Notes under the pieces: model-generated
The model's input: the letters and a program-made list of their open reading frames with translations, nothing else
Database searches by the model: none
What the model was told of the DNA's origin: nothing
Made by a program: the position numbers and the translations under genes
Shown here: one piece after another, positions 1-10,517 of the stretch
Layout: every line of letters starts with the position of its first letter
How positions within the stretch are numbered: the first letter of the stretch is position 1
Origin: Anaerotruncus sp. G3(2012)
GTDB lineage: Bacteria > Bacillota > Clostridia > Oscillospirales > Ruminococcaceae
Assembly: GCF_000403395.2 (NCBI RefSeq)
Contig: NZ_KE159668.1
Coordinates: 362,515-395,750 of the forward strand
Direction of reading: 5' to 3'
DNA: 33,236 bases

Positions 1-44
1 TCCCGCGCGGGCACTCCGCTGCGGGTGTTGGTTTCCGCGCCGCT
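1..44 (+). repeat. DGR variable repeat (VR), 3' part
   Basis: Bases 1-44 are identical to 1066-1109 (TR2). The last 21 bases (24-44) contain no adenine and are shared with all three TRs, as expected for the invariant initiation-of-mutagenic-homing (IMH) end of a VR. Similarity stops at base 44: VR continues into the stop region and the TRs continue into their own spacer. The 5' part of the VR is outside the window. Confidence 0.8.
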
Positions 45-770: not shown

Positions 771-882
771 GCTTCCTTTGCGCGGCGGCAATTGGGATAA
801 TGTGTCCAGGGCTGGCGTGTTCGCGCTGACTTTCAACAACCCGCGCGGGATTAGCAACTCCAATGTTGGTTTCCGCGCCGCT
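771..882 (+). repeat. DGR template repeat TR1
   Basis: 112-bp copy running from GCTTCCTTTGCGCGGCGGC to GGTTTCCGCGCCGCT. In the translated frame the middle is rich in AAY, ACT, ATT and AGC codons. The variable block (between GGCGGC and GTTGGT) has 17 adenines by hand count, as expected for a template used in adenine-specific mutagenesis. It differs from TR3 at about 18 positions, not all at adenines. Its downstream spacer lacks the second conserved block found after TR2 and TR3. Confidence 0.8.
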
Positions 883-994
883 TCACCCCCACAGCCAGAT
901 ATTCAGAGCTTACGGGCTTTGTTTCAGCGCATGGGGGATAAAGGGATCTGCCCCCTTGCCGAAAGGGACTATCCGAAATTGGGAACAGGCCGGC

Positions 995-1109
995 GCTTCC
1001 TTTGCGCGGCGGCTCCTATTGGGACGACCAGTCCGGGGCTGGCGTGTTCGCGCTCTACTTGGCTGTCCCGCGCGGGCACTCCGCTGCGGGTGTTGGTTTC
1101 CGCGCCGCT
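995..1109 (+). repeat. DGR template repeat TR2, adenine-depleted and VR-like
   Basis: 115-bp copy with the same constant ends as TR1 and TR3 but one extra codon after GGCGGC. Its variable block has only 6 adenines by hand count, against 17 in TR1 and 18 in TR3. Where TR3 has AAY codons, TR2 has TAC, GCT, GTC, CAC, GCT and GGT, all of the form NNY: the footprint that adenine mutagenesis leaves in a variable repeat. Its last 44 bases equal the visible VR exactly. The flanks match the TR3 module, so it sits in template position. Confidence 0.8.
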
Positions 1110-8649: not shown

Positions 8650-9101
8650 TCCCGCAGAGCACGTTCGATGTCCCGTTTGGCATCCCGTTTTGCCATGTCT
8701 GCGCGCTTATCGTGGAGCTGTTTGCCCTTGCACAGCCCAAGCTGGACCTTGACCCGCGAGCCTTTAAAGTAGATTGAAAGCGGGATCAGGGTATATCCCT
8801 GCTGGGCGGTCTGTCCCATCAGCTTCATGATCTGCCGTTTATGCATCAGGAGGCGGCGCTCCCGGTAGGCATCCCGGTTGAAGATATTTCCATGTTCATA
8901 TGGCGCAATGTGCATCTGTTTGATCCACAGTTCACCGTCCTTGATGTCGCACCAGCTATCCTTGAGATTGCAGGAGCCTGCGCGAAGCGACTTTACCTCG
9001 GTGCCAAACAGCTCGATTCCTGCCTCGAAGCTCTCCTCCACAAAATACTCATGGCGGGCTTTGCGGTTGATGCTGATGGTTTTGGTCGGCAATTTTTCCA
9101 A
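8622..9101 (-). CDS. smpB: SsrA-binding protein SmpB
   Basis: 159 aa, the usual SmpB length. The OB-fold core is recognisable by NRKARHEYFVEESFEAGIEL, GTEVKSLRAG and GELWIKQMHIAPYE. The C-terminal GKQLHDKRADMAKRDAKRDI is the conserved tail that enters the mRNA channel. It binds tmRNA and delivers it to stalled ribosomes. The likely start is TTG 9101 with GGGGGAG 7 nt upstream; ATG 9131 is in frame but lacks a ribosome binding site. It lies directly upstream of ssrA on the same strand. Confidence 0.95.
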   Translation of the reverse strand: MEKLPTKTISINRKARHEYFVEESFEAGIELFGTEVKSLRAGSCNLKDSWCDIKDGELWIKQMHIAPYEHGNIFNRDAYRERRLLMHKRQIMKLMGQTAQQGYTLIPLSIYFKGSRVKVQLGLCKGKQLHDKRADMAKRDAKRDIERALRDRQRGSFLL

Positions 9102-9566: not shown

Positions 9567-10166
9567 CTAGATTTCACTCCTTCCCTCAAGCGCGCGATAA
9601 AGGGTCACCTCGTCGGCATATTCCAGATTTCCGCCGACCGGAATGCCATAAGCCAGCCGCGTGACCTTGACCCCCATCGGCTTGAGCAAACGCGCAATAT
9701 ACATCGCAGTCGCTTCCCCTTCAACGGTGGGGTTGGTCGCCATGACCACCTCTTTCACCTCGTCCGAACCTAGCCGCGAGACCAGCTCCTTGATATAGAG
9801 CTGATCCGGACCGATCCCGTCCATCGGGGAAATCAGCCCATGCAGCACATGGTAAAGGCCGTTGTATTCCCGCGTGCGCTCAAAGGCAATCACATCCTGG
9901 GAATTCTCCACAACACAGATTATGCTGCGGTCACGCGCGTCATCCGCGCAGATCGGGCACAATTCGCTCTCGGTTAAGCTTTGACAGATTTTGCACTTCT
10001 TAATCTTTTCATGTGCTTCGAGGATCGCGTCGGCAAACTGCTTCGCCTTTTCCTTGGGCATCGCTAAAACGTGGAATGCCAGTCGCTGGGCGGATTTGCG
10101 CCCGATGCCAGGGAGCCGCTCAAACTGTTCGATCAGCTTTGTGAGCGGCACAACATGGTAGGCCAT
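9567..10166 (-). CDS. recR: Recombination mediator RecR
   Basis: 199 aa, normal length. An N-terminal helix-hairpin-helix ([20 protein letters not shown], 16-35) is followed by a four-cysteine zinc finger (C58, C61, C70, C73) and a Toprim domain (about 81-175, with [11 protein letters not shown] and [16 protein letters not shown]). With RecO or RecF it loads RecA on SSB-coated single strands at gaps. The order dnaX, ybaB, recR is widely conserved in Firmicutes. It lies 3 bp after ybaB. Confidence 0.97.
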
Positions 10167-10169
10167 CGG

Positions 10170-10517
10170 TCAAAAAACGCCCGGGATGTTCAGGCTGCCG
10201 GTAATCTTATCCATCTCGGCGGCAGAATACTCCTCCACTGTGCGGATCGCCTCATTGACAGCTGCGACGATCAGATCCTGCAGCATCTCGATGTCCTCCG
10301 GGTCGACCACCTCGGGCTTCAGCAGGATGGATTTGACCTCCTTCTTGCCGCTGATCTCCACTTCGACCATCCCGCCGCCGGAAGTGGTCTTGAAGCTCAT
10401 CTGTTCGATCTCTTCCTGTCTGGTTTTCATGTCCTCCTGCATCTTTTGTGCCTGACGGATCATCGCGTTCATATTCTGCGGGCCACCGCCCATCCCTTTC
10501 GGAAGTCTGGCTTTCAT
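10170..10517 (-). CDS. YbaB/EbfC nucleoid-associated protein
   Basis: 115 aa with the hallmark N-terminal helix NMNAMIRQAQKMQEDMKTRQEEIEQ, then GGGMVEVEISGKKEVKSILLKPEVVDPEDIEMLQDLI. Members are small dimers that bind DNA, with the gene placed between dnaX and recR in most bacteria. RBS AGGAGG precedes ATG 10517. Here about 250 bp, including an inverted-repeat element, separate it from dnaX. Confidence 0.95.
   Translation of the reverse strand: MKARLPKGMGGGPQNMNAMIRQAQKMQEDMKTRQEEIEQMSFKTTSGGGMVEVEISGKKEVKSILLKPEVVDPEDIEMLQDLIVAAVNEAIRTVEEYSAAEMDKITGSLNIPGVF

Follow-up and report, generated by a model that had tools for sequence, protein, structure and literature searches.

TR2, one of three templates in a DGR of Anaerotruncus sp. 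G3(2012), holds far fewer adenines than any other template compared here, and we give about an even chance to the reading that recombination replaced part of it with sequence from a diversified VR, leaving a template that writes a near-fixed sequence. The depletion is confined to its 3' half, where changes relative to adenine-rich templates concentrate at adenine sites. TR2 has its own structured spacer RNA on the 3' side, yet lacks an adenine-rich variable block. We infer a VR-to-TR2 direction of copying, a gene-conversion route, and continued use of TR2.

A three-template DGR locus

The window, i.e., the whole 33,236-nucleotide stretch analyzed here (G000:C12:362515-395750), begins with its first base inside the DGR. 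Its elements are ordered 5' to 3' as VR end, GGTA-loop hairpin, avd, TR1, TR2, TR3, and RT gene, with the following features:

1 to 44, + strand: 3' end of the VR in the target gene (identical to TR2 at 44 of 44 bases; FGE-sulfatase-domain protein upstream)
82 to 99, + strand: 7-bp hairpin with a GGTA (GRNA-type) loop, a candidate homing element 3' of the VR (from comparing GRNA-loop hairpins in VRs and TRs)
211 to 750, + strand: avd, gene of the Avd accessory protein (Pfam bAvd PF22296, E 1.2e-32, 113 bits; PHROG 3206, 'Avd protein of DGR')
771 to 882, + strand: TR1, adenine-rich template (17 adenines in the variable block)
881 to 1,000, + strand: TR1 spacer, shortened (RT-14 score of 33.4 bits, under the cut-off of 48.1; 3' terminal helix absent)
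995 to 1,109, + strand: TR2, adenine-poor template of the 78-nt class (6 adenines, no AAY codons, and a VR-like 3' half in the template comparison)
1,108 to 1,268, + strand: TR2 spacer RNA (Rfam RT-14, 58.4 bits, cut-off 48.1; covarying helices in the spacer alignment)
1,290 to 1,401, + strand: TR3, adenine-rich template (18 adenines; the VR body of locus L012 is a TR3 product in the template comparison)
1,401 to 1,548, + strand: TR3 spacer RNA (Rfam RT-14, 59.2 bits)
1,568 to 2,749, + strand: DGR reverse transcriptase, 393 aa, YMDD (Pfam RVT_1; PHROG 1423, E 2.5e-113)

The YMDD motif is invariant in an alignment of five RTs, and the window RT shares 41% identity with the BalMu-1 RT and 40% with the Lagaffe RT. 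Matches to the RT were found in 110 phage records, every one below 60% identity, and no DNA-level match to the window was found in phage records. The target protein, encoded upstream of the window, carries an FGE-sulfatase domain (PF03781, 30.4 bits, cut-off 23.3), which we take to have a C-type-lectin-like fold. It belongs to PHROG 2889, a family whose function is not known, and weakly matches a tail-protein family. Endolysin and integrase genes, identified when ten proteins were scanned, point to a prophage. The locus has a DGR-type RT, Avd, a candidate VR hairpin absent from the TRs tested, and an FGE-sulfatase-domain target; it is best read as a prophage DGR with several templates, in which TR1 to TR3 serve one VR in that protein.

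Multi-template arrays are rare among the 111 loci compared. Avd and RT matches occur together in 103 rows, and in 96 of these (some contigs occurring in more than one row) the two are 261–483 bases apart, which leaves room for one template. The remaining seven rows represent four contigs, with gaps of 725 bases in L017, 938 in the window, 939 in L059 (three rows), and 1,378 in L056 (two rows). L058 has at least three templates and L075 at least two, both arrays being cut by contig ends. A scan for adenine-biased repeats recovered a single TR-VR pair in each of 72 loci out of 84 and no pair in the other 12, including the window. The scan demands an ungapped match of 80 bases and overlooks templates from which the VR was not written.

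Adenine content of TR2 and its spacer RNA

TR2 comprises a constant 5' end (995–1,013), a variable block (1,014–1,091), and a constant 3' end (1,092–1,109). The variable block holds 6 adenines, compared with 17 in TR1 and 18 in TR3, and the six AAY codons in the 3' half of TR3 are represented in TR2 by TAC, GCT, GTC, CAC, GCT, and GGT. The extent of TR2, these counts (about 6 for TR2), the codons, and the identity with the visible VR over 44 bases had all been given in the original prediction and were recovered on recounting. Among 18 templates tabulated (from the window, L015, L016, L017, L056, L058, L059, and L075, leaving out L012 TR3, identical to window TR3, and the first L058 template, cut by a contig end), TR2 is the extreme: it has 6 adenines and lacks AAY codons, whereas adenines number 11–21 and AAY codons 3–8 in the remaining 17. 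Six VRs tabulated alongside them contain 6–12 adenines, and the hybrid repeats of L012, L015, and L057, kept apart from the table, have 9, 12, and 15.

The adenine loss sits in the 3' half of TR2, which holds 2 adenines compared with 8–14 in other templates. Relative to TR1, this half is changed at all 11 adenine sites and at 11 of the 34 remaining ones (Fisher p = 6.9e-5), and relative to TR3 at 11 of 13 adenine sites and 7 of 32 others (p = 1.6e-4). Comparable differences were obtained with L075 T2 (11/13 versus 7/32) and L016 T1 (12/14 versus 8/31), giving p values of 7e-5 to 2.4e-4 across these four comparisons, which are to be read as guides since the tests are post hoc and neighboring sites are non-independent. 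No such bias was found in nine template-versus-template controls (seven distinct pairs; p = 0.27–1), and it was weak against the adenine-poorer templates L058 T4 (p = 0.058) and L056 T4 (p = 0.083). Judged by these comparisons, the 3' half of TR2 looks mutagenized at adenines.

Neither TR1 nor TR3 was the source of TR2: its 3' half has 11 and 7 non-adenine mismatches to them, respectively, which rules out either as its parent. The third bases of some TR2 NNY codons also mismatch those of TR3 (AAT versus TAC), so TR2 is not derived from TR3. No progenitor was found in the template set, where the best 3' match still has 7 non-adenine mismatches. The variable block of TR2 is one codon longer (78 nt) than those of TR1 and TR3 (75 nt), a length shared with L056 T1, L056 T4, and L058 T4. 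It begins TCC TAT TGG, compared with TCT TAT/AAT TGG in L056 T4 and L058 T4 and TCT TAC in L056 T1. The 5' half of TR2 has 4 adenines versus 5, 3, and 4 in L056 T1, L056 T4, and L058 T4, with 1–3 mismatches to these templates at adenines and 11–14 elsewhere, and appears to have lost no adenines relative to them. The earlier proposal that TR2 is a diversified VR captured into a template position is therefore only partly upheld. It is favored by the adenine signature of the 3' half and by the RT-14 spacer unit that TR2 possesses, and disfavored by a 5' half without adenine loss and by the exclusion of TR1 and TR3 as sources.

Every template is followed on its 3' side by a related spacer, and those of TR2 and TR3 are members of the Rfam RT-14 family (RF02921) at 58.4 and 59.2 bits (cut-off 48.1), the TR1 spacer scoring 33.4. 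In 14 further loci, matches above the cut-off numbered 18 in total: four in L056, three in L058, two each in L017, L015, and L012, and one each in L059, L081, L082, L085, and L088, with none in L016, L053, L070, or L075. Template spacers in L016 and L075 score under the cut-off, as do two of the three in L059. Because the L016 template wrote its VR, a sub-cut-off score does not signify an unused template; a score above the cut-off is no proof of use. A shortened spacer without the 3' terminal helix follows the first template in both three-template arrays (window 881–1,000; L059 9,810–9,928).

When 17 spacers were aligned, both partners varied in 14 of 32 pairs, and 98.3% of cells pair. The covariation score, for a structure predicted from the very alignment scored, was reached by none of 500 shuffles. 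When partners were slid by 1–3 columns, 30–53% of cells paired. Further pair types in this alignment did not exceed shuffles (470 of 500 reach the value). The folding energy of single spacers is unremarkable (TR2 z = -1.34, TR3 z = 0.01), so the case for structure rests on covariation. With an above-cut-off spacer containing covarying pairs, TR2 is not an obviously dead copy; that spacer and a body free of stop codons likewise disfavor a plainly decayed one. For the DGR of BPP-1, such a spacer is described in excerpts of the source paper as recruiting the RT (PMC12875486).

Exact patterns for the TR2 body and for its 5' flank gave no match in IMG/VR, while an 18-base pattern of the 3' flank matched L012 (as L055) and one unrelated sequence, L060. 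Of 396 family genomes, only G000 and G006 contain the TR 3' end plus flank, and neither the IMG/VR patterns nor the 396 family genomes yielded TR2 together with its 5' flank a second time. A separate resemblance was seen between TR2 (window 1,056–1,067) and the VR of L016 (3,877–3,970), which have the codons TAC-(C/T)TG-GCT-GTC in common despite differing at silent sites around them; the shared codons may reflect convergent selection.

The VR and its sources in related loci

In its own genome, the VR is interrupted by 176 N (L001 1,325–1,500) directly upstream of window base 1. Sequence to the left of this gap ends ...GCGCGGCGGC, exactly where the variable block begins, so only the last 44 bases of the VR are readable. 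These bases (window 1–44) equal TR2 at 44 of 44 positions, compared with 7 adenine-site and 6 other mismatches to TR1 and 7 adenine-site and 5 other mismatches to TR3. The non-adenine mismatches mark the VR 3' end as TR2-type; on this alignment, adenine mutagenesis of TR1 or TR3 alone could not have produced it. Since the matching stretch of TR2 holds a single adenine and TR2 would write it almost unchanged, the identity is uninformative on direction, and writing from TR2 into the VR equally explains it. The constant 3' end, GTTGGTTTCCGCGCCGCT, is identical in the VR and all three window TRs, and the sequence common to the VR and TR2 at their constant ends spans 19 bases on the 5' side and 18 on the 3' side.

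L012 is nearly clonal with the window, with 1 substitution in 3,619 bases upstream of the VR, and no change either in the 459 bases that run from the TR2 spacer up to the RT gene or in the 1,182 bases of the RT gene itself. Its VR body differs from TR3 at 9 adenine sites and no others. The original prediction had looked to related strains for a VR alternating between TR2-like and TR1- or TR3-derived states, and the TR2-type VR end here, together with the TR3-derived VR body in L012, indicates that the VR does alternate between templates. Compared with window TR3, the TR3 of L015 carries two substitutions, each at an adenine (AAC to TAC; AAC to GAC). The L012 VR carries the same two codons and could equally be attributed to an L015-like TR3. 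These changes in L015 TR3 may be a further hint of flow into templates.

Products of more than one template also occur. The VR of L017 (3,500–3,610) is a mosaic whose 5' half comes from the first template (1 adenine-site and no other mismatches) and whose 3' half comes from the second (7 adenine-site and no other mismatches). In BPP-1, at least 8 identical bases are enough for 5' integration, according to excerpts of PMC3240598, and partial replacement is expected given that the constant middle of the repeats is longer than 8 bases. When nine VR or hybrid products were compared with templates, four were fully explained within their own record: L012, L016, and L056, the last two having one template each as the source of the VR, and L017 as a mosaic. 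The other five (L015, L054, L057, L059, and L075) were not fully assignable; in L054, L057, and L075 the array is truncated by the end of the contig. The 3' half of the L059 VR (8,860–8,970) is an adenine-only product (6 adenine-site and no other mismatches) of a template like window TR3 that is absent from the L059 array, a pattern that suggests template exchange between phages.

Origin of TR2 and relation to known systems

Under the reading we prefer, an adenine-rich predecessor of TR2, of the 78-nt class, would have written and thereby diversified a VR, and homologous recombination (gene conversion) would then, most likely, have carried this diversified VR over the 3' half of the TR2 variable block. 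Such overwriting would have erased the predecessor, and none is expected to be found, as observed. What TR2 now writes would be nearly constant, since only 6 adenines remain in it, and the VR here carries its 3' end. Rival explanations of TR2 overlap with this one and with each other (a template swapped in could itself be a capture), so the likelihoods we attach to them need not add up to certainty.

An assembly artifact is unlikely but is the rival we take most seriously. Here, the genomic TR2 would be adenine-rich, and an assembler or gap closer would have put the VR body in the TR2 slot and left the VR as N; the 176-N gap does adjoin the 44-nt match to TR2. Joints in related loci may add to this concern. 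In L012 (3,601–3,720) and L015 (4,428–4,550), the 5' side of the VR is fused to the TR2 3' flank, with avd and TR1 absent, and L057 (2,382–2,530, reverse strand) has a similar joint of VR 5' side and TR 3' flank at a contig end. By eye, the L012 joint falls within 22 bases common to TR2. The three joints are either VR-TR2 crossovers or assembly errors; in the latter case, the region may confuse assemblers, and they would be a warning that the window TR2 might be an error too. Against this, the TR2 spacer and flanks are contiguous and normal, and the artifact needs two wrong joints within shared ends of 19 and 18 bases, which would probably be below the k-mer lengths in usual use.

It is rather improbable that an old template lost its adenines by point mutation, with fewer variable sites perhaps being favored and no VR captured. 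The other 78-nt templates are themselves somewhat adenine-poor (11 adenines in L056 T4, 13 each in L056 T1 and L058 T4), and set against these templates alone the bias of TR2 has p values of 0.06–0.08. Between L056 and L058, template 4 differs by five substitutions, two of which involve an adenine in one of the copies, and template 3 by a single substitution that involves none; templates thus do not generally lose adenines. Ordinary divergence or selection would, however, have to account for the complete absence of AAY codons from TR2, for 3' changes that cluster at adenine sites in a template whose constant parts are preserved, and for TR-TR controls without such a bias.

We consider it improbable that mutagenic retrohoming integrated template cDNA in the TR2 slot rather than in the VR. 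A hairpin with a GRNA loop (consensus from excerpts of PMC3240598) follows six of seven VRs, none of nine TRs tested (of 18), and neither of two VR-TR hybrids tested, in a search limited to stems of at least 6 in 110 bases with the four longest per stretch kept; the L017 hairpin lies about 25 bases further from its VR. TR2 would so appear not to be a standard homing target, which makes direct retrohoming less likely than recombination, and TR2 is no adenine-only derivative of TR1 or TR3. The homing boundary could nonetheless be the constant 3' end common to the VR and TR1–TR3, and in BPP-1 loss of the hairpin impairs activity and does not abolish it, as excerpts of PMC12875486 report. Arrival of TR2 as a whole, already adenine-poor, by recombination with another phage is very unlikely: the L059 VR shows that templates may move, but the TR2 spacer differs from the L015 TR2 spacer by only 6 substitutions in 181, indicating a resident unit, and no donor was found.

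The locus resembles the BPP-1-type DGR in its Avd, YMDD RT, TR and VR, adenine-directed differences (in L012), C-type-lectin-like target domain, GC-rich constant 3' end, and downstream GRNA-loop hairpin, and departs from it in having three template units, where the BPP-1 type has one, and in the near absence of adenines from one of the three. More than one TR per DGR is known from excerpts of earlier reports: two in Stenotrophomonas sp. SKA14 and six in an atypical DGR of Pseudomonas costantinii (PMC6642488), and multiple Treponema denticola TRs in individuals sampled by metagenomes (PMC4891356). Neither an adenine-depleted, VR-like template nor a spacer RNA repeated with each template is described for those DGRs in the same excerpts. 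Excerpts of the open-PMC literature (PMC6642488, PMC12875486, PMC4891356, PMC10907252, PMC8144416, PMC3240598, and PMC5883640) likewise describe no captured adenine-poor template, which is weak evidence of absence. RT-14 copies above the cut-off number one to four per multi-template locus, compared with one in each of L081, L082, L085, and L088.

DGR information flow has been described as one-way, from TR to VR. If TR2 is an adenine-mutagenized template with a conserved spacer RNA, products can return to the template store, and a pure diversifier becomes a system able also to keep and restore an allele. This raises the question of how templates avoid adenine loss. Both points can be put to the test in these arrays, where each template comes with its own copy of the spacer RNA and one VR combines two templates. 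In silent-cassette gene conversion (pilS/pilE, vls), stored alleles are copied into one expressed gene and yield mosaic products. The L017 VR is such a mosaic, whereas copying here would run via RNA and a mutagenic RT.

It is doubtful, though conceivable, that in this phage clade a multi-template DGR works as a memory. A successful VR would be copied over one template, lose adenines there, and then be rewritten faithfully into the target; the other templates would keep mutating it, with halves of different templates combined. A crossover between VR and TR2 (as in the L012 and L015 joints, if real) would drop avd, TR1, and the homing hairpin and freeze the variant permanently. This function is speculation, and the roles of 'switch' and 'stored allele' for TR2 are functional guesses. 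The RT gene of L015 (5,001–6,182) contains one in-frame TGA, and no Avd match was found in the contigs of at least 3,000 bases of the L015 genome, which fits a locked, decaying element if its joint is real; a missing avd is weak evidence in such contigs and in the L012 record of only 5,385 bases. L015 also has a match to the Twister-sister ribozyme on the minus strand (10,087–10,171; 82.3 bits, cut-off 34).
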